Part shown: positions 9,249 through 64,000 of the stretch, piece after piece
Numbering within the stretch: position 1 is the stretch's first letter
Layout of the letters: each line of letters starts with the position of its first letter
NCBI GenBank assembly: GCA_033439265.1
Contig: JAVTVX010000002.1
Location: 816,001-880,000 of the forward strand
DNA: 64,000 nucleotides
Source of the DNA: Dillenia suffruticosa
Lineage: Eukaryota; Streptophyta; Magnoliopsida; Dilleniales; Dilleniaceae
Reading direction: 5' to 3'
Program-made: the position numbers and the translations under genes
The notes under the pieces: generated by a model
Databases searched by the model: none
The model's input: the letters and a program-made list of their open reading frames with translations, nothing else
Told to the model about the DNA's origin: nothing

Positions 9249-9286
<38 letters not shown>

Positions 9287-12118: not shown

Positions 12119-12146
12119 ATCTCTCTCTCTCTCTCTCTCTCTCTCT
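12119..12146. repeat. (CT)n microsatellite
   Basis: A run of about 14 CT units lies inside the pseudogene block. The paralogous intron near 18190-18230 does not have it, so it grew after the duplication. Confidence 0.8.
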
Positions 12147-13748: not shown

Positions 13749-13794
<46 letters not shown>

Positions 13795-20749: not shown

Positions 20750-20792
<43 letters not shown>

Positions 20793-26717: not shown

Positions 26718-26751
26718 TTCTAGTGACTCTCTATGAGCAACTTTGTGAAAT

Positions 26752-26763
26752 CTGCAGCAAGAA

Positions 26764-26810
<47 letters not shown>

Positions 26811-29800
26811 CAACCAAAATAAAGTAAATAAAAAAAGGGTCAAGAAAGACCCTTCAAAACTTGAATTGCAACAACATTCATAAGAAAGGGGGACAAGGAT
26901 AATGTCGCAATGCTTATTAAAGAGATAAACAAGTTACCCAGGAACATCATATAGAACTTAAAACTCAAGGATAGTTTAGAACAAGTAAAACAACTTGCAA
27001 GGAAGTTGAATCCCCACAATAGTATGTGCAAACACATCAAAATGCTAAACATGTGCATAAACATGCATGTTGATGCCTCTCAACAATCAAAATAAAAATA
27101 ATAATAATAATAATAAATAAATAACATGCATATGCAAGCAGAAATATACAAAGATTACACTACGAAAAAGAAAATTGCATGATCAAAATAAATAACTAGA
27201 AATCATAGGAAGAGAACAATTGAAAGCAATGGTCCTTCTACTTCTGCAAAAGATAGATAAGAAAAACAAAGAACACATAACATGCAGTAGCAACTTAATA
27301 TCACCTGTCCACAAAAAATCTTCAAAAAGAAAATGATACAGAAAAAAATAATATCTAAAGTAATCAAGCGGATGCAACCACGGCCACTGGGAGATAATTC
27401 CTCTTCTTGATCACGTCAACTTTCCAATAGTTTAGTCAAGCTAATATCAGTAGATGAAACATGAAACAAATTCTTTTGCTTTCTCGAATTGCAAATAGCC
27501 CCATAGTGATAGATCAAACAACATATACTGGAGCATGGCTATTAATACTAACATTTGTGTCCCTCCCATCTTTCATTGTCACACAAATATCCTTTTAGAG
27601 AATATGATTAGATGCAGTTGACCATCAAAGGATTAAACATTTTCGAACTGCAAAGGATGTATTCATATATTTGTTAACAAATGGAGTTTGAACACAAATC
27701 CAAAGACTTATTTAAGTATTTTGGTTTGCTCGAGACAGATCCACTCATTTAACAGGAAACAGAGGTGAATTTGAACAAAACATAGAGATTTGTTACGATA
27801 AATTCAAGCTTCTCAACTCTATTGATGTCCAATTACTTATTTAAGTTCAGTTTTTTATTTTCTTTTTCTCTGATGAGTCGTTTTAAATCCATTTTAAGGC
27901 ATCCCAATTCAGCTAGACTTGGTGTATCTGCTTCAATGCACGTAAATGTCAATTCAGGAATAAAGCCAACAAATATTATAGGAAGTACCTTTTAAGTTTA
28001 TGCAATAAAATTTGGGCAGGCCCAACTTCCTGGACTTAAGGCAAAGGGCTTCAAGCATTTTCAATCTTTGCACACTAGTATAAAAGGCCTATTTGACAAG
28101 GATTACTAAATATAGAAGAGTTGTACTGCTACGGACCCAAAACCTATTAGACGATTATGGCACAATTGCAAGGATTCACATTTAGCAAATTGTGGCAATT
28201 ACAATTCCATTTTTCTTTATTATAGTTTTCCACAATAAGTAGTTAAAACGTTGAGACTTAATGGTTGAGGCTTTCCTTTGTTACCGTTTTCCAAACAAGT
28301 CTAGCTAGAATCTTGGCAATTTGTCTTTTATTTGTAGCAATAACAAAGTAAGTTATTATGTCTCCCTTTTATATTTAAAGAAAGATTATCAATCAAAAAA
28401 AGCAAGAAAAAAACACCCTCAAGATTTAAGTCCCCAAAAAACTCAGAGATTCTAAGGTTCTCTTGAACGTGTCTTAGACATCATCGAGTTCTCCCTAACA
28501 AGTCCTTAATATATTAATGAATGTAGGTTACAATGGTAGAAACTCCATAAATCAAAACGGGGCAAACAATCTCTATTCATTACCAAGTTAACCGCCCTAT
28601 AACTCAATCCCAATCCCAAGACCGTAACAAGTACCCACCTTGGATGTGTTCCATCAAGTGTCACTACAACTCAATTTCCACACTGGACTTATGCAAATAA
28701 TTTCCTCAACCAATTGGAAACAAAATTAAGAAGTGAACAATTTATTGGCATTAATAACTAAACAATTTTTCTCCCCATTGCCCATAAAACAAACAATAGA
28801 ATTTATTCCCACCATCTACAAAAAATTGCTCTATTTCACCACCTAGGCTCTATCCAGCATGACTTCAAGCAAGATAACAATAACTAGACTAATAGGACTC
28901 AAGAAAGAACGAAAAAACAAGAAACAAGTGTAAGAAGCTATTATAACTAGACTAAATCAACTCATTTCCATCAAACATTAAATCGCATTTAATGGCATTA
29001 CCCATTGGCCATTGGATCTTTTTGTTATTACTATTTACCATTGATTCAACTCAATCTAAGCCTGCTTATCCAAAGAGAATGCAAACTACCATAGCTTCTA
29101 CATGGAACATGATACAGCAACTTTCTAAAATTTCTCTTTGTTTCTATTGATGCCTTCAATCCAGGTACCATGAATCCTCCAAATTACCACATTTGTTAGC
29201 TCATATTTCATCTAAATGATTATGCAAAAGACGTATATTAGCTAATAAGGAAAGGATCCATCATTTTGCATTTCAGCAAAGGACACCCCTTACTAGAGCT
29301 CATTCAAGATAATAGCTATTCATGGTTGAAGAGAAGCACGTGGGACCTAAAGCTTCTACAAAAAATTGGATTTACAGGAACAAAATAGCGCAGCCAACAT
29401 ACCAATGTGTCAGGGGTAAGTGTCATAGAAAACATGGGAAAATTTGCTACAAAATAAAATCTTGATTAGCACGACACGGGTAACCATGAAAGGTTTAAGC
29501 AAAAGGCATAGCACATTGCTCATAATCACATTCTAGTAGAGAACACCTTGATTTATCTGCCTGAACTCAAATCAATTGAGCTCAAAAAGAAGTCCGCAAG
29601 TACAAAACAAATAAATTGTATCATATACACAACAATTATGTTTAGTCAAAACACCTACCAGAATACTTCCACTATAATTTTTTGCATACGTAGAAATGCC
29701 GCAGCCTTGCTGCCTTCACTGTTAAATAGTCAAGAGGCTTTCCTCCAAAATCATCAACCAAATTTTCCCAAAAATCTCCACGGCTGCACTGACACAAAAA

Positions 29801-30299: not shown

Positions 30300-33040
30300 T
30301 TGGAAAACCCGAATTGTGCTCTCTCGCTTCTACAACAGATGGCGGGGGAGGAGAAACTACTCTCCCTCTCTCTGTATGTGTGTGTGCCCTCATCTCTCGT
30401 CCTTGCCCTTGCATTTGTCACTTTCCTTTTTTGGGTTTTTCAAATCTTTCCACGACAGATCAACTCAACTTCAGATTTTATTTTCTTCCCTATTTATTCT
30501 CGAAATGTTATTGTTGTTTGCAAGTAAATACAATTTACTTTACCTTTTCACAAAAGAATCTAGCATCACAGGAAAATTTTTTGAAGGTTGTGACCTTAAT
30601 AAAGTACAACCCAATCACTAAAACCTTATTCAAAAACCTCAACTAAATTTAATTTATACATACTTATCTTTAAGTAATTTTTTGCAAAATATAAATTTTA
30701 TATAAAAATTAAAATAAAAAATTATTTATATTAATAGTTATCTAAATTAAAAATCGTAACCAGTTTCATATTAGTTTAATTTTAGATTTTTTGAAATCCA
30801 AATATGTAATACTAATATAGAGTTTTTCTATTAAAACATGGTGTAGAGAGGAGGAGAATGAAAGAAAATCGTTATTGAATGGGATTATATCCGGGAGATA
30901 TGCTCCAAATTATGAAAAACACTGACTTTTGTGATTTGGTACACATTGTATTTTAGAAAACTGTTTTGAAAAAGTACATATTTTGGCACTTAAATTACAG
31001 TACAATGCACTTTGGGCTCTACTAATTTGTTCCATCACCGTCATGCATGGGAGGGAGGGAGGGAGGGAGAGAGAGAGAGAGAGAGGGGTTAGTTGACATT
31101 GATGTTGCTTTTGTGTTAGGTGGTATGCGGCGAAAACCAAAGTCAGGATGCAAGGCCATCAGGTTGGCATTTTGTTTTGTAAATGGAAGGTTGTACGAAA
31201 CGTGGAACTACATTTAGAAAGAAAATGATAGATTTGTTTCCCACTTTGTTAAACAGGATAATGTACTTCTATTCTATGTTAATTAGTATGAATATCTCTA
31301 AAAATAGTAACCACAATAACCCATACTTATAACTCCTCTAGTCTTTTAAACCTATAGTATTTATATGCAATTTTTGCAAGGCGAATATGGTACTTAATAG
31401 TTTCTCAAATAAGTGGGTTAATTCACAAATACAGATTTTGTACAAATTAGGTCTCTTTTCAATTTCAAGTGGGTATGTTATAAATTATGTACTCTTCCGG
31501 AGATATAATTTTGTGATTTTTGTAACTTTTTTTCGGTTTTTTTCTTTGAACACTAACATAGTTATTTAAAGTGTTATTATAAGAGTGTGACTTAATGCAG
31601 TTATTATAAGAGTGTGACTTAATGCAGTATGTTTTATTCATATAATAATAATAATAATAATAATAATTATTATTATTATTATTATTATTATTATTGTTAG
31701 AGTTTGATATCGTAAGTATGTTAAAAGGGCTAATGGTTTTAGACCCGTTTTCAAAATTTTATTTAATTTTGGAAATTAATAATTTTGGTCTTGCTCAATG
31801 TATTTGTTTATAGATTTTAATTAAATTTTGATTCGATGTTAAATGATGACACAATTTAAAAAACTTTTAAAATTGATTGGGTGGAGATTAAAAGCCATTG
31901 TCGGATTATGGTTGACTTAATTTGAACACCCAGCTTAATATATAACAAGAATCCGTGAGAATTGAAGGTTTTGTTGTCCAATTAAAGAGAGGTTTAGAGA
32001 TTTTTTTTTTTAATATATCACTGATATTTGATAACTACGTTAAATTTAATTAAATTTGATTTAAAATGGAGATTAATTATTAGAAGGTAATTTTTTTTTC
32101 ATATATAATCTGAGATCTAATTTAAAAATAAATAAATAGTGGCCGACCATTAAAGTAATTTAGCATTGGTTCGGAGTTCACATTAATAATTCAATCGAGG
32201 AGAGAATAACAATCTTGATAATATAAGAAGCACGCACAAGTGCTTGGGGCACCTGCGCCGAAAGGGCGCAGCCTCGCCATGCGCAAAGCTGGCACTTTGG
32301 GTTGACTTGTCCACTTTATCTTTTTTTTTTTTTCCTCTTTTTTTAATAATAAAATAAAATTAATTAAATTTATTTCGAATTGAATTAAAAATTTAAGAGA
32401 TAAAACTCTCATAATATTTATTTTATTCGTATAAAAGAGTTGAATTTAAAATTTTATTTAAAAAATATCAGTATTCAATCATTGAATTTATTAAATGTTA
32501 ATTTGGATTGACTTGTCTGCTTCGAGTTCTATAAAACTGTATTTAACTTAATTTTAAACCTTGATCTTAAAGCCAAATAAAAATTAAATTTTAATTTAAA
32601 AACACTAAATGTATCTAATAAACCATGAATTAAATTGAATAAATTTAATATAACGGTTTATATCAATATATATTAATTAATTTTAAATTAAATATTTATT
32701 ATAATTGAATAAAATATATTAATAATATAGTTAAAAATTAAATAAGATGTAATGATATAAATTGTTAGGTAAAGAGTAATTCGTCATTAATTATTTTATT
32801 TAGCTTTACTGATTTCATTTTATGTATGCCCCGAATTGAACCAGCCCGGCCGACGAATTTTAACTCGGACTTATCCCCAGCGGTTCAAAAATACCGGTCC
32901 CTCCAGCACCAAAAAAAAAAAAAAAATACCGGTCCCAAAATAATATTCCCCAATCCGAAACCGGACGTGATCCACCGACCCAAGTCCAAAATCCTAATTT
33001 ACAATCTTGAGTTCGGCCCACCCCCTCTCTCTACTCAAAA
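30300..33040. other. Intergenic DNA between divergent IDM1-like and DJ-1 genes
   Basis: The stretch is AT-rich, with a GGGA/GA repeat at about 31048-31084, a perfect 27-bp tandem repeat (31574-31627), and an (AAT)n to (ATT)n snapback tract at about 31640-31694. No gene is recognisable. The last 100 bases hold the DJ-1 5' UTR, with a CGGCCCACC site II-like element at about 33013-33021. Confidence 0.6.
31574..31627. repeat. Perfect 27-bp tandem duplication
   Basis: 31574-31600 and 31601-31627 are identical by direct reading. They lie in intergenic DNA just before the AAT/ATT snapback tract. Likely slippage. Confidence 0.9.
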
Positions 33041-33538
33041 ATGGCCACACGTCACACCCTTCTCTCACGCATCCCTCATTTTCCAGGACCTCTCTCTAGA
33101 AAACCCAAACCAAGACCTTCGTCACTCGCTAGCCCTTTATCTCCTCGACGAGCTTTCTCTGCCGCTGCCACTACAGTGTCAATGGCGAAGAAGGCTTTGG
33201 TTCCGATCGCGAATGGAACCGAGCCATTGGAGGCTGTTATCATGATTGATGTTCTTCGCAGATCCGGTGCTGACGTCACTGTGGTTTCTGTTGAGGATAA
33301 GCTTCATGTCGATGCTTGTCATGGTGTTAAGCTTGTTGCCGATGCCCTAATCGCTGATTGTGCTCACACTGCTGTTGATCTCATCTCTCTTCCTGTAATT
33401 ATGTCTCGCTGTTATCTTATTGCAGTTCTTTTTTTTTTTGAATTATGTATTGTGGTTCTTTGTCTTTGGATTTTGATACTGAATTCTGCTTATATTGATG
33501 GACTTGAATTACGCTTTTCAGATGCTGAAGCTTAACTT

Positions 33539-46282: not shown

Positions 46283-47627
46283 TGTGTTAGTAACTCAAGT
46301 CAATCACTTTGTTTTTGAATTAGATTCAATTCAATTTGACAAAGAAGTCATGTAAATTAAAGAATACATGAACCCCACCAAAAATGAACATGAATTATCT
46401 AATACTAATAATGAATGAGGAAAAGGAAGTGAGAATGAAAATATAAATTAGAGCCCCCCCATCCCCAACAATGGTTTCTTGTCTTTCTTTCCAATTTTTG
46501 GTCGCTCTGGTGCAATCTGACCAAGGAAATTCGTCAAACACCATGTATGTTGTATCCCATTAATAAAATTTGATCCCCAAAATTTCGCAATTTGGTCTGC
46601 GTGACACTGCAACATCTCCTTGGAAAACAAGAAAATCTCTCTCTCTCACTTTCTCTGAATATATATATGAGAGAGCACTTTATGTGAGGTTAACCCCAAG
46701 ATTTTGTTTGAGAGTATTTGAGGTGAATCTCACCTAGCAAACGATTAACATGGAGAACTAATGCTTCTCTCCAACAAGAAAATTCGAATTCTCTTTTTCT
46801 ATTTTAAATGATATATGAAAAAGCTTTCAGCTTTCACATACATATTTTACAAACCACCGCTGGAATGAAATTGGCTGCGATGGGGTTTATACTACACTAC
46901 TGTCTCATGCCAACATGGGACAGCAAGACATGGAGTGCGCGCGCGAGAGAGAGAGAGGGGGGGGGGGGGGTTTGTTCCATTATTTCTGGTCATGTATACG
47001 TTTTTTTATTAATTTTTTAATGTGATGAGATAATTTATAATTTTATAGGTATCATAAGTGAGAATTTTCGCTCTTCGTAAGGGAAGAGTTTTTTAGGATT
47101 AATTGAATCGTTAGGGTTTCAAATTTTAAACTAAAAAAGAAAAGTTCAAAATTCCCCATAAAGAGCGTTAGTGCATGAAAATTTAGAGCACTCTAATTCA
47201 TTAAAAAAAAATGTAAAATTTTGTATTTTTTTTGGAGTACCTTAGCATTCTTTGTTGGGAAATACTGATAATTTAAGTAAAATATTACAGACTTGATTCT
47301 AAAGGCCGAGACTGAATTAATATCGATCCTTTTTTTGGATGCATGAGATTTGACCCGATAGCCCGCGGGCCGTGATTGGGTTCCATGGACTCATGATTGG
47401 CCCAGAACAATTTCTGGACTAGGCCAGGCCCAAAAGGAGTGTACACGGTAGAAAATAGGTAGGTAGAAGAGATATTCTACGTATATCTCCCGGGACACGC
47501 TCGGCGTTTCTACATTTCTGAGGGACATTTCTTGGACCTCGACTATAAAATGCCCAAAACCCTCACCCGACTCTCTATCCCTCTCGTCCTTCTCTCTCTC
47601 TTCTCTCTGTGCTAGGGTTTTACGAAA
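46283..47627. other. Intergenic region and MORF8 promoter
   Basis: 46283-47380 has no recognisable gene. It includes a GC/GA/G-run tract (about 46938-46971). 47390-47627 is promoter-like for the gene that starts at 47628: GGCCCA site II elements at about 47399 and 47427, a TATA box near 47544, then CT-rich 5' UTR and a TAGGGTTTTA telo-box-like motif just before the ATG. Confidence 0.6.
47395..47627 (+). promoter_or_regulatory. MORF8 promoter: site II, TATA and telo-box-like motifs
   Basis: Two GGCCCA motifs (about 47399 and 47427), CTATAAAAT at 47543-47551 and GCTAGGGTTTTA at about 47611-47622 lie in the order expected for a plant gene for organellar or translation functions. Site II plus telo-box pairing is common in nuclear genes for mitochondrial proteins (established knowledge). 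Inferred from motifs only. Confidence 0.55.
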
Positions 47628-50600
47628 ATGGCGACGAAGTTTCTTTCTCGAGTCTCTCTTTTGTCTAAACAACCGTCACTCTCCTCTCTTCTCCTTTCTC
47701 GTTCCTCAATATCCACTCTCTCTCTCCCCTCACCCTCATCTTCTCTCTCTCTCTTCCGTCTCCGTCCTCTCGTCTCCATCACTTCACACCTTCGTCAAAC
47801 CAGTCCTCTCTCCTTCACTGTTCGAAGCTTCGCGACTCGTCAGACATCGTCTTCGCTCAATGACCCGAACCCTAACTGGTCGAATCGTCCACCCAAGGAG
47901 ACAATTTTGCTCGACGGATGTGACTTTGAACACTGGCTTGTCGTCGTGGAAAAACCTGAAGGTGAACCCACTCGAGATGAAATCATTGATAGTTATATCA
48001 AAACCCTAGCCAAGGTTGTTGGAAGGTATATACATATTTCGCTCTTATTTCATTACCCCTGTCTTGTGTGTTACTATTTGTATAATCACATACTTGTGCT
48101 TTTATTTATGTCTACCTATTGTAATTAATGGGAAAATGTTCTTTATGGATCCAATCATTGTTTTGTTTTGCTTTGTGGGTATGCTTGCATTTTATTTGTT
48201 AGGGTGTAATTGGGGGTACAATGAGGACCGTAAAGAATTTCACATAGTGTTGACTCTATATCTGAACTTGGGACTACCTATAAAGTCATAACCAAATTGA
48301 CAAAATCTGAGGGTGTTGTAAAGTTAATTAAATTCATCATTTAGATTTAATGAGAAAAGAAATAACACAATAGATTGGATTTTGTGGATTTGGGTCATTG
48401 ACTTGTTTGGTCCTTATAGCATTATTCTTTTCTTTTAGATTTCATAGGCTTTGTTTGGTTTTTCTGATTGTGTTTTTGATGATTAAGGACTGTGATGACT
48501 TTCGCATGGATTAGTTTTTACAATTAAACTTGGACTTGGAGTTATTAGTCTATTGGGCTTTTTTCTGCTAAGCACATCTTCTTATAAAACAATTGAGTTT
48601 ATTTTTTATGCATCTGAAGTTGCTACTAGCTCAAGTAATGACATTTGAGGCTTGGCAACTTCAATATTGAGATGATTTGCTGATGTAGAGCATTATGCAC
48701 ATTCTTGCCCTCTGCATCGAGTTCTATGATCAAGAGAATTACAATGTTTACTTTGTGTCACAACATTAAGTCATGCATTGGCTTTAGATGATGCATCATT
48801 TTTGGTGGGAAATTGAGACTGAATTCTTTTGTTTCTTCATGAAGATGAATGGGACAATCTTCCTAAATGGTGCTAATATGGGGGCTTTCTTTGAACTTCT
48901 GGCACGTTGAGCTAGTTGCCAATGTGAACTCAATTATCTGGGATTTATACTTTTTACTGTACCATAGTCTTGAAAAAGTTGCTTTGAAGATGAAAAATGA
49001 TATCCTATAAGCTTGTTTTGAGGATGGAAAATGATATCCTATAAGCTTATGGAGTGAGAGGTTCAGCACTTGATAATCTTCTTCAACTATGTGTAACAGT
49101 CCACATGTTTGGAGCGTGAGGGGAAAAAGGGGATCTTTTGATGGTTTCTTTACCCATTTGTGGTTTGTTTAGAGAGTGTAAAAAGGAGGATTTTTCATAG
49201 GATAAAAGCCTTAGCTAGATTAATTGATAGTTTGTAAAATCTCTTTATTTTTTGTCTTCCTACTAATCTCTCTTTATACAAATGGGTTGCTGATTTTCTA
49301 AATGCTTTAGTTTTTCTTGTTTGTATCACCCTGTAGCTTTTTGTTTAATGAAATTCTTCTTTTTCCTATACAACAATAAGCATATCCCTCTTTGAGTTGT
49401 CAAGGGCCCAACATATGACTTGGAGAGTTAAGGTAAAGATTAAACATACCTATGACAATTAGGTAGTGTCACAATTGTTCGCTGCATATATGTGTTGAGC
49501 TATGACCATACCACTATTGCTGTATTTGTTTCAGTGAGCTGCTCAGAGCATTATATTGCTGTACTAACGTTAAACTTGATCAGTTTATGATCTAAAATCA
49601 CTTAATTTCTTTGGTGATGATTTTGTTCTGTAAATTTTGTCTAAAGTGAGGAGGAAGCAAGGATGAAGATATATTCAGTTTCAACTAGGCATTATTTTGC
49701 TTTTGGTGCTCTGGTATCTGAAGAACTATCATTAAAGATTAAAGGTACACTAAGTTGTAAGTTGTGTTTTTGTCCCTTTTGAAACTTTCTTTTGACTAGA
49801 AACTCTAATGGTTCGGTCTAAATGGAAACAGAGCTGCCTGGAGTTCGTTGGGTTCTCCCTGATTCTTATTTGGATGTTAAAAATAAAGATTATGGAGGTA
49901 TGAACTTACTTGTTGTCCTGAGTTTCTTGCAATATTAATTTTCTGTAAGATGTTCATGGTCCACTGGGCTTTGCATCAGTTTTATTATTGGCCATTGTTG
50001 AGGTGATTTTCATGCATGTCCATGTCACCGCAGGCATGTGCATCTTTTATTTGAAAATTTAGTGGCCACTAATAAATTTTGAATTTCCATATCCAAGTTC
50101 ATGTGGGGAAGTTTTTATTGGCAACATTAATTCCCCAGGTTGTTTGTTTGACATAATAAAGTTTGCAATGTATTTGTGAGCATGCAAATGATTTGGGTAT
50201 GTCTTTCAATGTGCACTGGCTAATCTGGTGTATTATTTTCACATTCTATAGGGGAACCTTTTATCAATGGTCAAGCTGTTCCCTATGATCCCAAATACCA
50301 TGAGGAGTGGGTGAGAAATAATGCACGAGCTAATGAGAGAAATAGGCGCAATGACAGGCCACGCAACTTTGATCGGTCAAGGAATTTTGAAAGAAGAAGA
50401 GAAATGCAACAGAACCGAGATTTCCAGGGACCACCACAAGGCAACATGGGAGGACCCCCACCAAATAATATGGGAGGACCTGGAGCACCACCTGGTAATA
50501 TTGGCAGAGGACCCTTCACTGGTGGATTGCCTCCAAACACAATGGGAGGAGGACCTGGTGCACAGCCTAGCAATATCGGTGGAGGTCCCAATACGGGTGG

Positions 50601-51045
50601 AATGCCTTCAAACACAATGGGAGGACCTAATATGGGAGGTATGCCCACAAGTCCAATGGCAGGGGGCCCTAACATGGGTGGTGGAATGCCACCAAACAAC
50701 ACCGGTGGAGGTCCCAATATGGGTGGACTGCCTCCAAACACAATGGGAGGAGGACCTAATATGGGAGGTATGCCCACAAGTCCAATGGCAGGGAGCCCTA
50801 ACATGGGTGGTGGAATCCCACCAAACAGTGGGGCGGGTATGCCCAATCAAGGCTGGTCCAACAACATGCCCAATAGAGATTTCCAGGGCAGGCCTGGACC
50901 TAGTGGAGGTGGCATGCCTTACCAAGGGAATCCAACACCCAATTATCCACCCAACTATCAGAATGCCTATCCACCAAATGCCGGAAATGTGCAAGGTGGC
51001 AACCAATACCAGTCAAGGGACATGCCGCCACCTCCAAACTATTAA
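47628..51045 (+). CDS. MORF8: Multiple organellar RNA editing factor 8 (MORF8/RIP1)
   Basis: MORF8/RIP1 interacts with PPR proteins and is needed for C-to-U RNA editing in mitochondria and plastids. Exons 47628-48025, 49647-49744, 49832-49897 and 50252-51045 join in frame to 451 aa. Residues 1 to about 70 are Ser/Leu/Arg-rich with almost no acidic residues, as in a dual organellar presequence. The MORF domain runs from about 85 to 205: [20 protein letters not shown], the [18 protein letters not shown] segment, [14 protein letters not shown] and [20 protein letters not shown]. The C-terminal 220 residues are Asn/Met/Gly/Pro-rich with tandem repeats ([12 protein letters not shown] twice) followed by PNY at the end. 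This tail is longer than in Arabidopsis (about 395 aa total). The first intron is 1.6 kb. Confidence 0.95.
50620..50815 (+). repeat. Coding tandem repeat in the MORF8 tail
   Basis: About 50625-50685 and 50745-50805 are near-identical, encoding [12 protein letters not shown](G/S)PNMGGG. They alternate with PPN(T/N)..GGGPNMGG units, giving a higher-order period of about 120 bp. Length differences between species are expected in such a tract. Confidence 0.8.
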
Positions 51046-52246: not shown

Positions 52247-55200
52247 TCATCTGGTATCAGAAAAGTAACCAGCAGATATGGTACCGTCCACAAATTCTGC
52301 TCTTCTGTCCTTGGCAGCTCGGATCTCATCTTCGAGAGAAGCTTCTCTTCTCAAATGATCTCTCTTTATGATCTTCATGTCTAGTTCTTCCCAAGATGGC
52401 CTATGAGATGATGCCAGGTCCCATTCGCTTCTGACTTGACCACCCACTGGTTTCTTTTTGTAAATCTAAAACAGATAGAGCAATACAATTCAGAAAAGAG
52501 AAATGATGGAGAGAACATGAAAGATAATGTTGTACCTTTGTCAATCTTTCTCTAAGTTTCAATGCGCGAGCAACTGCTGATTTTTCTCTCTCTTCCTTTG
52601 ATTTCCCTCGAGCTTTTCTCGTTCTTTCTCCTCTCACTTCAGCCATCTGTTCCATGTATTTTTTCTTTTGAGCAAGTCTGGCCATCTTCTCTGCTTTTGC
52701 CTGTGCTGCCTTTAGTTTTCTCATCTTTGTAATTTCCTTTGCTTTTGCCTTTTCTGCTGCACGTTGGAGCTGTTGAAGAGTGATCGCATCTTTAATCTTG
52801 TCATAAGTATCCCAAGACAGATCTTCTTGATCATCAAAACCTTTTTTGGCCGCCCTTGCTATGTTTTCTACCCACAACAGAAAAAATTTCTCCCTCATTC
52901 GTTTCCATTTCAAACGCTCTGCCCAGAGCTGCCTAAGTGAAGAACGGATTCTTGACTTGGTCTGCTCACTGCAAGATACGTCTACCACTCAACTTCTATC
53001 TTGCAAATAGTAAGGAAATAACTAAAGATTCAACATTTATGATAAACTTCAGTGAGTTAAAAATTAATGCTCAACAACAGGAAGATCAATTCAAGCTGAG
53101 GAGAAGAGACAATCAGTTCTACAGAAAGACTTCAGCCAGCCGTAACATTCTTATTATCAGTCATATACGTTAATAGAGTTATAAAGACTGACCCTGAGCA
53201 TATCAAATAAGTTGTTTCAAAATGTTGCTAGAAGAATCTTGACCACCACATCTGGGGAATGATGACTTCCAAGTTAAGAGATTAGGCATGAAGCATGTGA
53301 TTATTGATGCTTTACAACTGAAGAAAGAGATGAGGAATCATTCATACTTTGGAAAACTTTTACAAGTATATCATAAAAATTAATAGATGGTGCAACTAAA
53401 GTATATCATAAAAATTAATAGATGGTGCAACTAAGCTTGAGCTGATTCTGGGACAATTATCTCTGGTTATGTTTTATCTAACATCTGGTATCGGAGCTAT
53501 TAAGCACTATGGGGGAAGAATGACTTTCAAGTTAGAGATTAAACATGAAGCACCTGAGAATTGATTCTTTACAACTGAGGAAGGAGATCTGGAGTTATAC
53601 ATTACTTTGGAAAACATTTACAAGTATATCATAAAAATATATTGATGGTGCGATTAAGCTTAAATTTATTCTGGGACCAACATTTCTGGTTAGCTTAAAC
53701 TGATTCTAGGACCAACATTTCTGGTTATGTTTTACCAAATATCTTGTAATAGTCATCCCATCCAACAACAGTAATCTAACAGGGATGCCAGATTAGCTCC
53801 CTGGGACCAATTGTAATAGTGAATTTTTGTTCCATGTGGGCATTCGATCCATTGACAACAATCTAACAGGGGTGCAAGATTGTCCCTAACTTCTACCTGA
53901 TTGTCCTATTCATGAACCGTTCCTGTTTTGTACCTTTCTTTGTTCACTAAATTTCAGTTCCAGCATTAGGCACTTTAACAGCATTAAGATTTCTTTGCAA
54001 ACTGATTTTATTGGAGCAGGCCTTCTGAGTGGATAGGTTGCAGATGTAGGAACACTCATCTTTAAGGTGGGCTCATTTGGAAAGCCTATCATAATTGGAG
54101 AAGAGAAACCTTATAAAAAAGTAAGGACCAATTGCAATCAAGAGTTATGATTTATTCCCAACTGAAAAGGCTTTAATCTGGGTGTTATTTAATCTGAGTT
54201 CATGGAGTGGCCATGAACTATATACAAGAAAGAAATTGGATCCACCAGGTGGCAAGAAAGGAAAGGGTAAAATGAAATAGAGAGAGGAAGAAGAGAGAAT
54301 GGAGAGTCAATTCTTTATGGTCGTCTTCATGCAGTTCCATCTGTTTCTTCACTCACTCAATTGTTCTTTGAATTTGCTTTCTAGAATTTCACAGTTTACC
54401 AGCTCATCACTGTCTCAATTAGTTTATAGCATTTTGGAAGCAATAGATCAACCAGCATTCGTTAACGAGCAAAGGAAATGGAAGTATTTCACGAGACAGA
54501 ACACTTACTTGTGAGCGCGAGGATATTCAGCCATCTTCTTTCTGACCTAAAAGATAGGGAGAGGATAATTTTCAGCATAAAACCATGATTGATCAAGAAA
54601 CTAGGAAATTCTTGTTGCAATTCCCTCCTTTTCTATTGTAGGGGAGGGTTGGAAATGAGTTTGAGAAAATAAAAAATAAAATAAAAATAATAAAAACAAG
54701 GAGGCATATATGGCTTGAGAATCAATAGAATCAAGTGTACAACAACAACCAAGCCTTTATTGTTGTACACATGGTTCTGTTGATTCTCAAGCCATTTTTA
54801 TTTTCTCAAACTCATTCCCAACCCTCCACTGCAATAGAGCGATGTATAATTGAACATAAATTTCTATATAAATATGCTCAGTTGACTACTTTTGTATCAT
54901 CATCTAGTTCTTAGTGCATGTAAAATCGGCATTTTATCACTCTTTCAAGCCATTATACTGTACATCTCTCATCCTATCCTCAATAAGAGGTATTCCTAGC
55001 TTTTTCTACAAAGCAACTATAGAATCCCTGAAAGAGAGACAGAAAATATCAAAACTGACTGATTCTTACATGACTTCACCTTGGGATTTCTCAAGGCTTC
55101 TATTGTTCTCTGTTTGATCCTTTCACGAGTCTCTGCATGTGTGGAATGACAAATTTAGAATCATACATAGTCAAACTGTGACAACAAATTGCCAGGATTT

Positions 55201-55611
55201 ACCTGCACTATGTTTCCTGCCTTTGTTCCAAGGTACTTTTCCTTTGTTTGCCAGTGCAATCCTTCTTCTCCGCTCACTTTCCTTGTGATTTACCTTACTT
55301 GAAACTTCAACAAAGTCAGAATCAATATTTGATTGAATTAGCCCATTGAAGGTTTCCTGCTGACACAATTTTGCATCAAGTTTTTCCTGGTCACATTCCT
55401 TAACATCAGATAGCTCCTGCAGAGCCACATTCATGTCCAGTGCTCTAGGAGAAGGAAGCCTCTCCAAGGAACCAAAAGATCCAAAGTGAAAATGCAGATT
55501 CTTCAAAGGAGCAGCTGGATATTTCACTTGCATCACATGCGGGTTGTATAGCTTGCACTCAAGCTGATAGCTTGAATGCTGCCTTATAAGTGTGTATTGG
55601 ACCCATTCCAT
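52247..55611 (-). CDS. NUMOD3-motif basic coiled-coil protein
   Basis: Exons on the minus strand 55611-55203, 55132-55080, 54546-54509, 52968-52536 and 52465-52247 join in frame to 383 aa from this Met. The middle has ERRRRIALANKGKVPWNKG, then ETRERI, EALRNPKV and RKKMAEYPRAH, i.e. tandem NUMOD3 motifs (PF07460), first described in homing endonucleases and also found in plant nuclear-encoded proteins. Next is EQTKSRIRSSLRQLW and a long Lys/Arg/Glu/Ala-rich helix that looks like a coiled coil (about 230-310). The C-terminus is conserved-looking (RREASLEDEIRAAKDRRAEF). Function is unknown; nucleic-acid binding is inferred from NUMOD3. The N-terminus is uncertain: an overlapping frame upstream (55747-55559) encodes family-like residues and ends in a stop, so a frameshift or unrecognised splice may exist. 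Its large second-last intron carries repeat elements. Confidence 0.8.
53252..53745. repeat. Diverged ~250-bp direct repeat with PBS-like site
   Basis: A unit at about 53252-53485 recurs at about 53503-53745 with moderate identity (shared ATGACTT.CAAGTTA, CTTTACAACTGA, TTTGGAAAAC, TCTGGTTATGTTTTA). Between them TGGTATCGGAGC (about 53487-53498) is close to TGGTATCAGAGC, the complement of initiator Met-tRNA used as primer-binding site by plant LTR elements. The first unit ends ...AACA just before it. This could be a miniature LTR (TRIM-type) remnant or an ordinary tandem duplication. The first unit also contains a perfect 35-bp tandem repeat (53364-53433). Confidence 0.5.
54632..54838. repeat. 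Foldback (inverted-repeat) element in an intron
   Basis: The left arm (54632-54745) and right arm (54760-54838) are reverse complements with few mismatches around a 14-nt loop. The left arm holds about 37 extra A/T-rich bases (54674-54710). Paired parts include GAGTTTGAGAAAATAAAAA with its complement, and GGCTTGAGAATCAA with its complement. It lies in an intron of the NUMOD3-motif gene. It could be a small MITE, a snapback duplication, or a hairpin RNA source. Confidence 0.8.
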
Positions 55612-56547
55612 ATGTGGAGGTAGCCTGGTGGATATCCATATGATGGTTATCAGAATTTTTTCCTTGAAAAGTACTAACTTTAAATATTAAAAATAAAACG
55701 ACTTGCTGTAATTTTGGTGCCATGGTGATTCTAACAGTCAAACAACTCATTCATTTTTCAACTAAGTTTACATGTTCTTGGTGTATTCAGTCATTGATAT
55801 GCAGAATAGTGTTTGCCTGCAGTTCAACTCAGCGGGGCACTCACTGGATTAGTCTTCAAAAGTTTTATCTGTTAGTTCTCATTCATATCATACAATATGA
55901 TTCATATATGTCAAAGTCAGTGGTACATCGTATAACTATATGGAGGAAAGCCATGACTAGCACAAGGTATAGCAAAATTGATCCATCAAACATTGGTTTC
56001 TCTAATCAAATCACAGAAAAACTCCAACCTAAAACGGGACATATGGTCTTCCGAGCTAAGGGCAATATAGTGGTTAATGCTCCACGATACAAACCATAAG
56101 CCGCATATTGAACTCAACTAACTCTATGTTTACAATTTAGTCCGCAGTTCATATGACCAACATAAATCATAAATTCAACCCTAGAAACCTTCTCTTCATG
56201 TTTGATTAGGTCAATTTTTGTCCCACATCCATAAATTGTGCAAATTTGATGAACCCAGAAAATCATTGGTCAAATTTGAATCCTCGGTATGATGTTCTTG
56301 CCAATGCCTTACATTCGTACAGCTATGAAGTAGACTATCAACGTAAACAGGCAATATCATAGAAGGTATACCCCCATTAACGCACAAAATTTTTGAAACC
56401 CCAGATCCCTAGTTGCAAGAACCCACAAATCCATTACTGGGTTTGCTCAAACTAGAGATCAAGAATTGTAATGAACGACTAATGCACGATAAGAGAACTA
56501 ACTGCTGCGAAATTTGAAGAGAGAGAGAGAGAGAGAGAGAGACTTAC
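55612..56547 (-). other. Probable 5' UTR intron of the NUMOD3-motif gene
   Basis: A donor-like GCTT|GTAAGT on the minus strand ends a putative leader exon at 56548, so most of this stretch would be a first intron. (GA)n lies at about 56517-56541 next to the donor. The acceptor was not fixed with confidence. No other gene is visible. Confidence 0.4.
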
Positions 56548-56780
56548 AAGCAAATGAATGGCATTTGGAAATCAGATATTATGAACAGACAACAACATGA
56601 GATTTATCAGAAATTATATGCGCCGAACGCTGAAGATAGCGGTACATTCGCTGAACCCGCTCGCTTCCTGACGTCTGGTCTTGCGGTTCGTGGCTATATT
56701 TGGAGGAGCACCCGTGATTTAAAACGAAAAAAGACAACAAAAAAAAAAAAGTATTTTGCTTCTTTTTTGATATCATAATT
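56548..56780 (-). promoter_or_regulatory. Leader/promoter of the NUMOD3-motif gene, start of tandem duplication
   Basis: The minus strand carries the putative first (non-coding) exon ending at the 56548 donor. The tandem-duplicated unit begins at about 56623 inside it, at CCGAACGCTGAAG on the plus strand. On the plus strand a frame here encodes [17 protein letters not shown], the same residues that end the truncated UBA2C copy at 60.3 kb. In this copy those residues have no UBA2C sequence before them. Confidence 0.5.
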
Positions 56781-58270
56781 CTGTTAAAGTTTTTCACTTT
56801 TGGCATCATACCTTAATCTTTTTCTTGGTACACACACCCCCTTTGATTAAAAATAGCTATGCACCACTAAAAAAGATCATTTTTTTTTAATAATTATAAA
56901 ATAATAGTAATTTTCTCTAATATATTAGAATATTAATCAAAATTAATAGTTTGGTTACCTGTTCTTTCTAGGTAATTAGAAGTAATCATTTATGTAAGTG
57001 AAAGTATTTCGTGTTACAGTTTTATACCACTCCTACGATATCTTCTTGGCACAAGAGCTTTTGGCTATTTTTTTTTCTTTTTGATAATTAAAAGTTAGAA
57101 TAAGTTTGTATAATTATGGTTATTATCACTTTTATCTTTATATCTTCGGCGTGCAACAATGGCTGCTTCTGCTTTTTGGCTGGATACACATTAACATTTT
57201 ACTAATGTGTGAGTTCTTATTATCTTCACATTTTTGTTCTTTCTTGGCAATGGGCATTTGAAATATATATTCATTCACTTGGGTTAGATCTTTTGCTTTC
57301 ATATTCTAAACATTTTGACTGTGATTCAATGTTGAAGTTAGGATTTTGACCTTCAGAGAAAAGTATATATGCATGTTTATAAAGATAGGAATTCATGAAG
57401 ATAAAGTATATATTTAGGGGGTAAAATAATTTGATGGAATGACAACAAGAAGAGAAAGAAATCTGACTTTTTGTTCTTCTCCCATGAGGGTGGCAACTTG
57501 CTCTACTCAAGTGGTTACAAGTTAACGGTAGAGTCACTTCATTTTCATTCTTTATTTTTTCGATTTAATCCAGTTTGATTATATTATTTTATAAAATAAA
57601 TAATAATATTTTATCGATTTGAGAACTTATAGATAACCTAGAACATCAATTAACCCCAATTATATCCACTATTCATCAAATGTCTTGTTGCGCCATTTCC
57701 TGTATTTGCATGCATACAAGTTAACAGTGTACAAAATCAAAAGTTTGCAAGTACATAGAAAACCAATTATCTCAGATTATCTCTACTTTTCATTCTTTTT
57801 TGGTATTTGAAATTAAAAAAAAAAAAATTCATTCTTCCTTGTTATCTTTCCTTACTACATCCTCTTTTCATGTTCCAAAAGTTTGACTGTGATCAATTAA
57901 TTGCAATCCCTGCAATTGGTTTGTTGCAGTTTATAACACACACTCCTCTCTGAGTAATATCTAAATTAATTATATATAAATTAAATGTGTATATCAATTT
58001 AGTAATAAATTAAAAATATTAAAAATATTAATTTGAAAGTTTATATATAAATTAAAAAAAATCAATTATCACGATTATGTTTACTTATTTTAACATTTAA
58101 CATGTATTTATTCTTTGGAAAAAAAAATATTTTCATTAATTTTCTCCTTATATTCCCTTAGTTCTCCATCTTTGGTATTCTAGAGATTTGAAACCCCCGA
58201 ATCATTTACCAATATATATCCAAAAAAATTTTAAAATAATCCCTAATAAAAATTAATTCCGTTTCTAATC
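56781..58270. other. AT-rich spacer in duplication unit 1
   Basis: No gene was recognised. It is homologous to 60330-61890 in unit 2 with scattered substitutions and small indels. Poly-A/T runs and AT-rich stretches are common. Confidence 0.6.
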
Positions 58271-58284
58271 CTTATATGTCACGG

Positions 58285-58860
58285 GTTGAACCCACGACAT
58301 GGGTTCCTCTCGCCACTCGCGACTCTCTCCCTCTCTCCCCACAACCTGTGACATGGGTTCCCTCGCCGCCTGCGACTCTCTCCCTCTCTCCCCACGCGGC
58401 TTTCTCTCTCCCTCTCCTGCTCGCGGCTCTCTCTCTATCTCCTCTGCTATCGCTCGCGGCGCTCCTCCCTTCCTCTCTCTCCCGCCTGCACCTCTCTCTC
58501 TCCCCCTCCCCCAACCGCCCACGGCTCTCCTCTCTCCTTCACTCCCCTGCCCATGTCTCTCTCTCTCTCTCTCTCTCTCTTTCTCCTCCCCGCCGCCTGC
58601 TGCTGTCCTCCCCCCCACGGCAGTCCTCCCTCTCTCCCCCCTCGGCTCTCTCTCTCTCTCTCTCCCCCCGCGGCACTTCTCCCCCCCTCCTGCAACAGTC
58701 CTCCTTCCTTCCCTCCCCCCGCGGCAGTCCTCCCCCTCCGCGGCTCGCAGCCTCCCTCTCTCCCTCCCCTGCGGCAGTCCTCCCTCCCTCCCTCCTTCCC
58801 CCCGCGACACTCGTCTCTCTCTCTCTTCCCCTACGACACTCCTCCCCATCCGCAGCGGAG
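58285..58860. repeat. Pyrimidine-rich block upstream of UBA2C copy 1
   Basis: About 575 bases are almost entirely C and T on the plus strand, made of CTCTCTCCCTC-type units interspersed with CGCGGC-type triplets. GC content is far above the flanks. It opens with an inverted repeat (GAACCCA, 5-nt spacer, TGGGTTC, 58288-58306). Lack of stop codons creates long Ser/Pro/Leu frames on plus and Arg/Glu/Gly frames on minus; these are compositional. Unit 2 has a shorter version at 61920-62380, missing at least two segments of about 55-60 bases. Confidence 0.85.
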
Positions 58861-58908
58861 TGCCGTGAGAGCGAGAGAAGCGCCGCTGGCAAAGGATGTC
58901 GCGTCTCG

Positions 58909-58975
58909 GAGACACAAAACCTTGTGTCGCATCTTAGAGACACAAAACCTTGTGTCGCATCTTAGAGACACAACT
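58909..58975. repeat. 28-bp tandem hairpin repeats
   Basis: 58909-58936 and 58937-58964 are nearly identical 28-mers, followed by a partial third. Each contains GACACAA-AACC-TTGTGTC, a 7-bp stem with a 4-nt loop. The pair recurs in unit 2 at 62431-62486. Confidence 0.88.
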
Positions 58976-59336
58976 CGCTGTATTCTCTGTTATGATGACA
59001 CGACACCATATCGCGGTATCACGATTCTACACATGATAAATAAGAGTTATTTTTAGAATTATTTACCTCAAAGTTCATTTAAATTTTCTTTTTCTCGGTT
59101 TGCCCCCCCTCCCCATATTAACCTTCATGCCTGCAACTCAATCCCCAAAAATTACAACAAAATATCAAAAAAGAAATACATTTGAACCCAAAAAAATAAA
59201 AAGGCCCCGTAAAATATCTCAGGGTCGCTCCCGTCCCGGTTTTAAAGGCAAGCAGCAATTTCTTTCGTTTTTCTACGCAAGTAAACAAACCCCTCTCTCC
59301 TCTCGAGCGCCCATTCCTCTTGCTCTCTCTCTTTCT

Positions 59337-59357
59337 CTAGGGTTAGGGTTAGGGTTT
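59337..59357 (+). promoter_or_regulatory. Telo-box array in the UBA2C copy 1 leader
   Basis: AGGGTTAGGGTTAGGGTTT, three telomere-type repeats, lies about 70 bases before the start codon after a CT-rich tract. Telo-boxes are common near transcription starts of plant genes for RNA and translation functions. The same array is at about 62863-62882 before copy 2. Confidence 0.75.
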
Positions 59358-59422
59358 TTCTTAGATTTCTCCGCCTCTCTCTCTATCTGAAACCACTCTC
59401 GCCGGCTTGTTTCTGTCCATTA

Positions 59423-60328
59423 ATGGACCCAACCAAGAAGAGAAAGCTCGAGGAGAACGGCTCCACACTCCTCTCCACGGAAACCACGGACTCTTCAGCC
59501 CAAGCCCTAACTCCTGACGACGTTCGCAAAATCGTCGAGCACTTCACGCATGACCAACTCGTCACCATCATCCAAAACGCCGCAAATCACAATCTCGATG
59601 TCCTCAACGCCGTCAGATCAATCGCTGATCGAGACCCTTCCCAGCGAAAGCTCTTCATTCGTGGCCTCGGTTGGGACACCACCACTGATGGTCTCCGAAA
59701 GTTGTTTTCGACTTACGGTGAGCTTGAAGAAGCCGTCGTGATTCTCGACAAAGCCACCGGAAAATCCAAGGGTTATGGATTCATCACTTTTAAGCATGTT
59801 GATGGGGCTTTGTTGGCCTTGAAGGAGCCGAGTAAGAAAATTGATGTCCGAATGATGGTTACCCAGTTAGCGGCTGCCGGAATTTCGGGTTCTGGGAATT
59901 CGGCGAATGCTGTGGACATTAGTTTGAGGAAGATTTATGTGGCGAATGTGCCGCATGAAATGCCGGCGGATAGGTTGTTGAATCATTTTGCGGCGTATGG
60001 GGAAATTGAGGAAGGGCCTTTAGGGTTTGATAAGCAGACGGGGAAGTCGAGAGGGTTTGCTTTGTTTGTGTATAAGAGTGTGGAGGCTGCGAAGGCCTCT
60101 TTGGTTGATCCGGTGAAGAATATTGATGGACATCAGTTGGTTTGTAAATTAGCGATTGAAGGCAAGAAGGGGAAGCCCGGAGGGCCGCCCGGTGGAGACA
60201 TGCCTGGGGGCGATGGCATTGGGATGCCGCCTCCGAACGCTGAAGATAGCGATACATTCGCTGAACCCGCTCGCTTCCTGACGTCTGGTCTTGCGGTTCG
60301 TGGCTATATTTGGATGAAGCACCCGTGA
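59423..60328 (+). CDS. UBA2C: UBA2C-like RNA-binding protein, copy 1, truncated with chimeric tail
   Basis: UBA2 proteins are nuclear hnRNP-like proteins with two RRMs (partners of UBP1) acting in mRNA handling, senescence and stress. This uninterrupted frame is 301 aa. RRM1 (about 75-150) has RNP2 LFIRGL (77-82) and RNP1 KGYGFITF (116-123). RRM2 (about 169-245) has IYVANV (171-176) and RGFALFVY (210-217). After residue 272 (PPPN) the Gly-rich tail of the family (about 400 aa in Arabidopsis) is replaced by 29 unrelated residues ending WMKHP. The nucleotide sequence of that tail is the start of the next duplication unit, i.e. the opposite strand of the NUMOD3-gene leader. Compared with copy 2 it differs at about 8 of 272 residues, including Val142 where copy 2 and the family have Gly (KIDGR). 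Both RRMs look foldable; without the tail, protein interactions may be lost. It may be a pseudogene in the making. Confidence 0.88.
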
Positions 60329-61919
60329 TTTAAAACGAAAAAAGACAAAAAAAAAAAAGTATTTTGCTTCTTTTTTGATATCATAATTCTGTTAAAGTTT
60401 TTCACTTTTGGCATCATACCTTAATCTTTTTCTTGGTACACACACCCCCTTTGATTAAAAATAGCTATGCACCACTAAAAAAGATCATTTTTTTTTAATA
60501 ATTATAAAATAATAGTAATTTTCTCTAATATATTAGAATATTAATCAAAATTAATAGTTTGGTTACCTGTTCTTTCTAGGTAATTAGAAGTAATCATTTA
60601 TGTAAGTGAAAATATTTCGTGCTACAGTTTTATACCACTCCTACGATATCTTCTTGGCGCAAGAGCTTTTGGCTATTTTTTTTTTCTTTTTGATAATTAA
60701 AAGTTAGAATAAGTTTGTATAATTATGGTTATTATCACTTTATCTTTATAGCTTCGGCGTGCAACAATGGCTGCTTGTGCTTTTTGGCTGGATACACATT
60801 AACATTTTACTAATGTGTGAGTTTGCAAATAGACCAAAACAATCAAAAAACCTTTATTATCTTTATATTTTTGTTCTTTCTTGGCAATTGGCATTTGAAA
60901 TATAAATTCATTCACTTGGGTTAGATCTTTTGCTTTCATGTTCTAAACATTTTGACTGTGATTCAATGTTGAAGTTAGGATTCTGACCTTCAGAGAAAAG
61001 TATATATGCATGTTTATAAAGATAGGAATTCATGAAGATAAAGTATATATTTAGGAGGTAAAATAATTTGATGGAATGACAACAAGAAGAGAAAGAAATC
61101 TGCCCCCGTGAGGGTGGCAGCTTGCTCCGCTGGAGTGGTTATAAGGTAACGGTAGAATTACTTTATTTTTATTTTTCTTTTGTTAATTTAATCTCATTCG
61201 ATTATATTATTTTATAAAAAAATAAAATTATAAATTCGAGAGCGTATAAATAACCTAGAAAATCAATTAACCCGATTATATCCGCTATTCATCAAATATC
61301 TTGTTGCGCCATTTGCTGTATTTGCATGCATACAAGATAACACTGTACAAAATCAAAAGTTTGCAAGTACATCACAAAATCAATTATCTCAGATTATCTC
61401 TACTTTTCATTCTTTTTTGGTATTTGAAATTAAAAAGAAAAAAAAAAATCATTCTTCTTTGTTATCTTTCCTTACTACATCCTCTTTTCATATTCCAAAA
61501 GTTTGACTGTGATCAATTAATTGCAATCCCTGCAATTGGTTTGTTGCAGTTTATAACACACGCTCCTCTATGAGTAATATCTAAATTAATTATATATAAA
61601 TTAAATGTGTATATCAATTTAGTAATAAATTAAAAATATTAAAAATATTAATTTGAAAGTTTATATATAAATTAAAAAAAAAATCAATTATCACGATTAT
61701 GTTTACTTATTTTAACATTTAACATGTGTATTTATTCTTTGGAAAAAAAATATTTTCATTAATTTTCTCCTTATATTCCCTTAGTTCTCCATCTTTGGAA
61801 TTCTAGAGATTTGAAACCCCCGAATCATTTACCAATATACATCCAAAAAGATTTTAAAATAATCTCCAATAAAAATTAATTCCGTTTCTAACCTTTATAT
61901 GTCATGGATTGAACTCACG
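60329..61919. other. AT-rich spacer in duplication unit 2
   Basis: Counterpart of 56720-58300. No gene was recognised. It contains the duplicated promoter side of the NUMOD3-motif gene, now without that gene. Confidence 0.6.
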
Positions 61920-62385
61920 ACATGGGTTCCTCTCGCCACTCGCGACTCTCTCCCTCTCTCCCCACGCGGCTTTCTCTCTCGCTCCCTTGCTCGCGGCTCT
62001 CTCTCTCTATCTCCTCTGCCGCCGCTCGCGACGCTCCTCCCTCCCTCTCTCTCCTGCCTGCACCTCTCTCTCTCTCCCCCAACCGCCCGCGGCTCTCCTC
62101 TCTCCCTCACTCCCCTACCCGCGGCTCTTTCTCTCTCTCTTTCTCCTTCCCGCCGCCCGCTGCTGTCCTCCCCTCCACGGCAGTCCTCCCTCTCTCCCCC
62201 CTCGGCTCTCTCTCTCTCTCTCTCGCTCCCCCCGCGGCACTTCTCCCCCCTACGCAGCTCCCGCAACAGTCCTCCTTCCTTCCCTTCCCCCGCGACAGTC
62301 CCCCCCTCTGCGGCTCGCAGCCTCCCTCTCTCCCTCCCTCGCGGCAGTCCTCCCTCCCTCCCTCCCTCCCCTCGCAGCGGAATGC
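61920..62385. repeat. Pyrimidine-rich block upstream of UBA2C copy 2
   Basis: Shorter counterpart of 58285-58860, with the same C/T-only composition and opening inverted-repeat remnant. Length differs by about 110 bases from unit 1, the largest difference between the two units. Confidence 0.85.
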
Positions 62386-62430
62386 CGTGGGAGCGAAAGA
62401 AGCGTCGCTGACGGAGGATGTCGCGTCTTG

Positions 62431-62486
62431 AAGACACAAAACCTTGTGTCGCATCTTAGAGACACAAAACCTTGTGTCGCATCTTA
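62431..62486. repeat. 28-bp tandem hairpin repeats (unit 2 copy)
   Basis: Two units (62431-62458 and 62459-62486) with the GACACAA-AACC-TTGTGTC hairpin, matching 58909-58964. Confidence 0.85.
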
Positions 62487-62862
62487 GAGACACAACTCGC
62501 TATATTCTCTGTTATGGTGACATGACACTATATCGCGGTATCATCATTCTACACATGATAAATAAGAGTTATTTTTAGAATTATTTTACCTCAGAGTTCA
62601 TTTAAATTTTCTTTTTTTCGGTTTGCCCCCCTCCCCATATTAACCTTCATGCCTGCAACTCAATCCCCAAAAGTTACTACAAAATATCAAAAAAGAAATA
62701 CATTTGAACCCAAAAAAAATAAAAAGGCCCCGTAAAATATCTCAGGGTCGCTCCCGTCCCGGTTTTAAAGGCAAGCAGCAATTTCTTTCATTTCTCTACG
62801 CAAGTAAACAAACCCCTTTCTCTCCTCTCGAGCGCCCATTCCTCTTGCTCTCTCTCTTTCTC

Positions 62863-62882
62863 TAGGGTTAGGGTTAGGGTTT
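62863..62882 (+). promoter_or_regulatory. Telo-box array in the UBA2C copy 2 leader
   Basis: The same AGGGTTAGGGTTAGGGTTT array as before copy 1, about 65-85 bases upstream of the copy 2 start codon. Confidence 0.75.
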
Positions 62883-62947
62883 TTCTTAGATTTCTCCGCC
62901 CCTCTCTCTATCTGAAACCACTCTCGCCGGCTTCTTTCTCTCCATTA

Positions 62948-64000
62948 ATGGACCCAACCAAGAAGAGAAAGCTCGAGGAGAACGGCTCCACACTCCTCTC
63001 CACGGAAACCACGGACTCTTCATCCCAAGCCCTAACTCCTGAAGACGTTCGCAAAATCGTCGAACACTTCACGCATGACCAACTCCTCACCATCATCCAA
63101 AACGCCGCAATTCACAATCTCGATGTCCTCAACGCCGTCAGATCAATCGCTGATCGAGACCCTTCCCAGCGAAAGCTCTTCATTCGTGGCCTCGGTTGGG
63201 ACACCACCACTGATGGTCTCCGAAAGTTGTTTTCGACTTACGGTGAGCTTGAAGAAGCCGTCGTGATTCTCGACAAAGCCACCGGAAAATCCAAGGGTTA
63301 TGGATTCATCACTTTTAAGCATGTTGATGGGGCTTTGTTGGCCTTGAAGGAGCCGAGTAAGAAAATTGATGGCCGAATGACGGTTACCCAGTTAGCGTCT
63401 GCCGGAATTTCGGGTTCTGGGAATTCGGCGAATGCTGTGGACGTTAGTTTGAGGAAGATTTATGTGGCGAATGTGCCGCATGAAATGCCGGCGGATAGGT
63501 TGTTGAATCATTTTGCGGCGTATGGGGAAATTGAGGAAGGGCCTTTAGGGTTTGATAAGCAGACGGGGAAGTCGAGAGGGTTTGCTTTGTTTGTGTATAA
63601 GAGTGTGGAGGCTGCGAAGGCCTCTTTGGTTGATCCGGTGAAGAATATTGATGGACATCAGTTGGTTTGTAAATTAGCGATTGAAGGCAAGAAGGGGAAG
63701 CCCGGAGGGCCGCCCGGTGGAGACATGCCTGGGGGCGATGGCATTGGGATGCCGCCACCCAATTCCATTCCGGGTTCTGGATATGGCGGGCCGGGCGGGC
63801 CTGGTGGGCTTTCTGGGTATGGCGGCTTTGGTGGGCCAGGCGGGCAGCCTCCATTGGGTCATATGGGGCATCATTTGAGCTCAACTTTATCCTCTGTTGG
63901 GAGTCAGGCACCATCTTCTTTGGGTGTTACGGGAGGATATGGTTCTGGTCTTGTTGGTGCTTATGGCGGTTCACAGTATGGAGGGCCTGGTGGGGCTGGT
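62948..64000 (+). CDS. UBA2C: UBA2C-like RNA-binding protein, copy 2 (runs off window)
   Basis: The frame is open from the Met at 62948 to the last base: 351 codons, incomplete at the 3' end. Residues 1-272 match copy 1 with about 8 differences (A26S, D32E, V47L, N55I, V142G, M145T, A151S, I166V, copy 1 to copy 2). Here the family-conserved KIDGR is kept. Both RRMs are intact (RNP motifs at the same residues). After PPPN it continues into the native tail: [12 protein letters not shown], then Gly/Tyr/Phe/Ser-rich low-complexity sequence ([21 protein letters not shown]), as in Arabidopsis UBA2C (about 404 aa). This is the functional-looking copy. Its promoter is the duplicated one in unit 2. 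Confidence 0.92.

Follow-up and report, generated by a model that had tools for sequence, protein, structure and literature searches.

A 3.6-kb unit near the right end of the window, the 64,000-nucleotide stretch of Dillenia suffruticosa DNA analysed here (C2:816001-880000), is present twice on its contig, head to tail. This is a real partial tandem duplication, and it carries a chimeric open reading frame in which the 5′ part of a UBA2C gene runs into the presumed leader of a neighbouring gene, read antisense. The truncated first copy is probably an unconstrained, dying chimera rather than a new functional gene, and an intact UBA2C stands beside it as the second copy. The gene is presumably UBA2C, the label of an earlier reader, which fits its two RRM stretches, its Gly-rich tail and the general features of the family; no database match bearing that name supports it.

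Results

The window was compared with itself and with the 596-Mb genome in 37 contigs. The duplicated unit, its junction and the neighbour are laid out as follows.

56548..56730, minus strand: presumed leader or first exon of the NUMOD3-motif gene (model by eye; outer limit approximate)
56623..60231, plus strand: duplicated unit, copy 1 (alignment to copy 2, ends refined)
60232, single base, no strand assigned: junction base T, matching neither parent (junction alignment)
60233..63756, plus strand: duplicated unit, copy 2, which runs on into the rest of the intact UBA2C (alignment)

The copies of the unit differ at 129 of 3469 aligned columns (3.7%) and by 28 gap runs, of which 14 fall in 56730-58290 and 8 in a CT-rich stretch at 58291-58860. 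Among the blocks compared, the coding block is the least diverged, at 1.2%. Copy 1 of the unit is made up of a piece of the neighbouring gene's presumed leader, some 2.7 kb of intergenic DNA and UBA2C as far as codon 270; the left unit end thus lies within the presumed leader and the right end inside UBA2C. The neighbour carries a NUMOD3 motif (PF07460) at 55174-55686 on the minus strand, with 22.5 bits where the cut-off is 20.4. A GTAAGT at 56542-56547, adjoining the presumed leader, is its presumed first splice site.

The UBA2C match stops at 60231, the second base of codon 270, and the leader match opens at 60233, in a plus-strand reading that is antisense to the minus-strand NUMOD3-motif gene. 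The base between them was either inserted singly or arose by substitution next to a 2-bp CC microhomology. When 200 bases spanning the junction were searched against the whole genome, five matches were returned, and the only full-length one was the junction itself. Three of the five covered the UBA2C half only (copy 2, together with a gene and a pseudogene on contig C5), and one, the left copy, covered the leader half only. The locus combines the features of a partial tandem duplication: the repeat is head to tail and one of its boundaries lies within a gene, the new junction occurs once, and the parent is intact. The anatomy proposed in an earlier note is confirmed. End joining appears likelier than repeat recombination as the source, because the breakpoints share no long homology.

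A homeologous segment on C5 does not carry the duplication. It holds an intact UBA2C of 432 aa, with its first 270 codons at C5:5921370-5922179, and, on the corresponding side, DNA resembling the NUMOD3 gene region, with order and orientation as on C2; the similarity goes on downstream of UBA2C. No second UBA2C occurs within the 20 kb examined at this locus. Similarity to C5 ends at window position 56475 and returns weakly from 57697, and the NUMOD3 leader cannot be aligned to C5.

A UBA2C pseudogene (L013) lies elsewhere on C5, at C5:5767753-5768506, about 153 kb from the intact C5 gene, with which it groups (27 sites of that pattern). Like copy 1, it is an extra UBA2C that shares a contig with an intact one and is apparently relieved of constraint. 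Unlike copy 1, it stems from a separate event, and its frame is already broken by in-frame stops and deletions. Spare UBA2C copies thus seem to be in decay on both C2 and C5.

The reading frames around the junction are the following.

59423..60328, plus strand: chimeric ORF (copy 1), 301 aa, UBA2C to codon 270 followed by antisense-leader codons (ORF call; RRM_1)
60239..60325, plus strand: new tail of 29 residues, 273-301 (protein comparison, Pfam)
59919..60257, minus strand: reciprocal ORF, 112 aa, from the leader fragment into the antisense of UBA2C copy 1 (ORF list)
62948..64000, plus strand: intact UBA2C copy 2, 433 aa, continuing past the window end to a stop that ends at C2:880249 (window 64249)

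The chimeric frame is present as the note had described it, with both RRMs kept: RRM_1 (PF00076) matches two stretches of the chimera, with 89.8 bits, although the best stretch is shortened from 77-143 to 77-137 in copy 1. The intact copy 2 has two RRM stretches and a Gly-rich tail, the latter contributing 161 aa from residue 273, 58 of them glycine. In copy 1 this tail is lost and 29 other residues, encoded by the antisense leader, stand in its place, again as described. These residues have no Pfam match at E 0.1. The junction had been placed at about codon 272, which holds for the protein in that the first differing residue is 273, P271 and N272 being the same as in UBA2C by coincidence; at the DNA level the junction belongs at codon 270/271.

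The copy 1 frame is open through all 301 codons, its copied part contains no disabled frame, and its truncation is caused by the junction alone. From the junction, 31 codons are open here compared with 51 in the left leader copy, and it is a 1-bp length difference between the leader copies that sets the stop of the tail after 31 codons. Since the leader cannot be aligned to C5, this difference is not polarised. The other two phases past the junction reach a stop after 15 and 2 codons. Mononucleotide shuffles of 156 bases were open for at least 31 codons in 13% of cases, and the open tail was accordingly rejected as evidence that the product is functional. Poly(A)-like hexamers of the plant type occur past the chimeric stop, whereas none of five such hexamers searched for occurs in the 700 bases past the native stop, so that the hexamers are neutral on function. 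A bacterial promoter/terminator scan of 60200-60900 is irrelevant for plant DNA. The minus-strand ORF at 59919-60257 is not thought to be a gene.

Differences between the two UBA2C copies were polarised over codons 1-269, with the C5 UBA2C as outgroup. All nine differences lie on the copy 1 side and none on the copy 2 side (two-sided binomial p=0.004). Eight are replacements (S26A, E32D, L47V, I55N, G142V, T145M, S151A and V166I) and one is silent, giving a dN/dS of 2.4. Between copy 2 and the C5 gene there are 6 replacements and 34 silent changes (dN/dS 0.048), and the two ratios, 8:1 and 6:34, differ strongly (Fisher p=5e-5). Because copy 1 shares the silent site, at codon 39, with the C5 pseudogene, the side of that change is uncertain, which leaves eight clear changes; with codon 39 dropped, the comparison becomes 8:0 against 6:34 (p=8e-6).

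Two other origins of these changes were rejected. Copying of sequence into copy 1 from another UBA2C does not account for them, as eight of the nine are absent from both the C5 gene and the C5 pseudogene. Positive selection on copy 1 is likewise dismissed, as a dN/dS of 2.4 is not above neutral; the simulated probability of at least 8 replacements among 9 changes was 0.18 with the transition:transversion ratio of the whole unit and 0.31 with a ratio of 3:6.

The replacements vary in the positions they affect. Residue 142 in RRM1 is G in copy 2, the C5 gene and the C5 pseudogene and V in copy 1, yet it is N in three paralogues (L005, L006 and L008) and so is not invariant across the family. Residue 47 is V in two of these paralogues and I in the third. 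Not all copy 1 changes therefore strike invariant residues, a comparison drawn from three of the five UBA2-like sequences at 46-49% identity, inspected at the eight changed residues only. As a post hoc observation, codons 56-141 and 167-269, which make up most of both RRM cores, are free of the nine changes. Copy 1 has no coding indels in 807 bp, though the unit as a whole has its 28 gap runs.

The copy 1 coding changes comprise 3 transitions and 6 transversions, compared with 94 and 25 in the noncoding part (p=0.006, or p=0.017 once the CT-rich stretch is left out). This transversion richness (59423-60229 compared with 62948-63754) involves small numbers.

The amount of change depends on the yardstick. 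The 5′ flank (59100-59422) offers 307 ungapped columns, with 73 gapped columns left out, and has 4 changes on copy 1, 3 on copy 2 and 2 unresolved. At this rate, which is based on just 7 changes, 9.2-10.5 changes are expected in the 807 bp of copy 1 and 9 are seen, whereas copy 2 has 0 against 7.9-9.2 expected (p 1e-4 to 4e-4). By the 5′ flank yardstick, copy 2 is thus constrained and copy 1 is not. When the two copies are contrasted directly, with 9:0 in the coding part and 4:3 in the flank, p is 0.06.

In the wider noncoding DNA of the unit the copies differ at 119 of 2659 columns, a rate at which each copy would be expected to carry 18.1 changes, against the 9 seen (p=0.015). Leaving out the CT-rich stretch lowers the expectation to 16.5 (p=0.034), and the unit's first 600 bases, used alone, predict 5.4. 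That the wider noncoding DNA predicts more change than is seen slightly weakens the reading of copy 1 as decaying and slightly strengthens the dominant-negative alternative discussed below. The open frame offers no argument for function, since 9 random substitutions left it open in 80% of simulations with the unit's transition:transversion ratio and in 70% with 3:6.

Taken by the usual signs, copy 1 lacks the mark of purifying selection, having 8 replacements to 1 silent change and a rate close to that of the 5′ flank. The loss of constraint expected of a pseudogene is found, with the reservation that copy 1 changes more slowly than noncoding DNA overall. Residual or weak constraint on copy 1 is possible; its slowness relative to noncoding DNA, its excess of transversions, the spared RRM cores, the lack of coding indels and the p of 0.06 leave residual selection some room.

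Three further observations concern the rest of the window. Stretches at 9019-26933 are repeated at 77-83% identity. Some of them extend into a minus-strand ORF of 959 aa, in which a Tify domain binding domain scores 53.1 bits (PF16135) and a PHD-like match falls short of its cut-off; related copies of a gene may be clustered here. At 47616-51045, an ORF with a MORF domain (PF21864, 39.1 bits) precedes one rich in Gly, Pro and Met. The second ORF is probably a later exon and contains a direct repeat (50571-50698 and 50697-50827, 92% alike). An ORF at 33011-33535 has a DJ-1/PfpI match (PF01965, 43.3 bits) and is probably a first exon.

Discussion

Chimeric genes formed by partial tandem duplication are already well described. 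In Drosophila, tandem duplications that yield chimeric genes and recruit non-coding sequence have been described and counted (PMC4503668). The present locus resembles those cases in having a boundary within a gene, with the 5′ part and non-coding DNA combining into a new ORF beside an intact parent. It differs from that survey in being a plant locus in one assembly, with about 1% coding change on copy 1, which is apparently decaying. Compared with plant UBA2c/AKIP1-like hnRNP-type proteins, copy 2 and the C5 gene are full length with a Gly-rich tail and copy 1 keeps the RRM part; copy 1 departs from these proteins in having no Gly-rich tail and 8 replacements in 269 codons.

The history that best fits these data would begin with divergence of the homeologous C2 and C5 segments, followed by the tandem duplication. 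An event of the end-joining type, with at most 2 bp shared at the breakpoints or one added base, would have copied the 3.6-kb unit with its right end in UBA2C and its left end in the presumed leader of the divergent neighbour. Copy 2 would have remained whole and constrained. Copy 1 would have retained the entire intergenic DNA, its own 5′ leader and codons 1-270, lost the Gly-rich tail and gained 31 antisense-leader codons through chance. Transcription of copy 1 may persist. Its coding sequence would now be drifting under little or no constraint, as an incipient pseudogene with a frame unbroken so far, and its product presumably has no function. The earlier note had offered a dominant-negative RNA binder or a dying copy as alternatives. 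The dying copy is favoured by the nine of nine changes on copy 1, the eight replacements among them, a rate close to that of the 5′ flank and the dN/dS of 2.4, and the dominant-negative role finds no support here.

The foremost rival, though an unlikely one, is that a tail-less UBA2C binds the same targets through both RRMs but, lacking the Gly-rich, prion-like tail, fails to form the condensates that depend on it, and so damps UBA2C. In Arabidopsis, UBA2c is reported to require its prion-like domain to form gel-like nuclear speckles (review, PMC11435361). Wheat UBA2C reportedly requires both RRMs for cell death and H2O2, and RRM1 for speckles (PMC11847341), and is reported to recruit defence pre-mRNAs (PMC8959173). 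For potato UBA2s, RRM1 is reported as required for cell death (PMC4473998). The reported roles of the RRMs and the prion-like domain suggest that a tail-less protein with two RRMs could compete with the full protein. Both RRM matches persist in copy 1, most of both cores is unchanged, and copy 1 has changed less than the noncoding DNA as a whole, all of which suits such a role. It is opposed by the 8:1 ratio on copy 1 compared with 6:34 between the intact genes, by a copy 1 rate close to that of the 5′ flank, and by the changes G142V and T145M in RRM1. A literature search for truncated RNA-binding paralogues acting as dominant negatives found nothing relevant.

An antisense role is more doubtful still. 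Here the orphaned promoter and leader of the neighbour, from 60233, would fire leftward into copy 1 and yield RNA antisense to the RRM coding sequence. Such RNA could base-pair with UBA2C mRNAs and be a source of small RNAs that target copy 2 and the C5 gene. Through the duplication, UBA2C copy 1 is indeed faced by another 5′ end of the minus-strand gene, without the presumed first splice site at 56542-56547, which lies outside the duplicate, and the two copies differ at just 9 of 807 coding bases. The limits of the leader and promoter are themselves inferred, however, and the C5 counterpart of the leader is unalignable.

It is about as improbable that the duplication is an assembly artefact in which two haplotypes of one locus were joined head to tail. 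Haplotypes of a heterozygous plant can reach 3.7% divergence, the level seen between the copies. Nevertheless, assembly error is unlikely because the pattern of replacements is lopsided: alleles of so constrained a gene would hardly differ by 8 replacements and 1 silent change, all on one side (Fisher p=5e-5), while the 5′ flank changes are balanced at 4:3. Such a pattern might also come from random base errors confined to one copy, yet there are no indels in 807 bp.

The most far-fetched of these readings is a two-way device in which a tail-less RRM competitor and orphan-promoter antisense RNA would both lower UBA2C activity, overexpression of UBA2 being reported to cause cell death (PMC4473998).

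The locus is a polarised example of the birth of a chimeric ORF by partial tandem duplication, caught with its frame still open; the intact sister copy and the homeolog without the duplication serve as its controls. It also carries a warning, in that a chimera of this kind, its frame open and its domains recognisable, would receive a gene annotation even though its substitutions reveal little constraint. If harm from extra dose drives the loss of spare UBA2C copies on C2 and C5, the locus could serve as a test of that idea.
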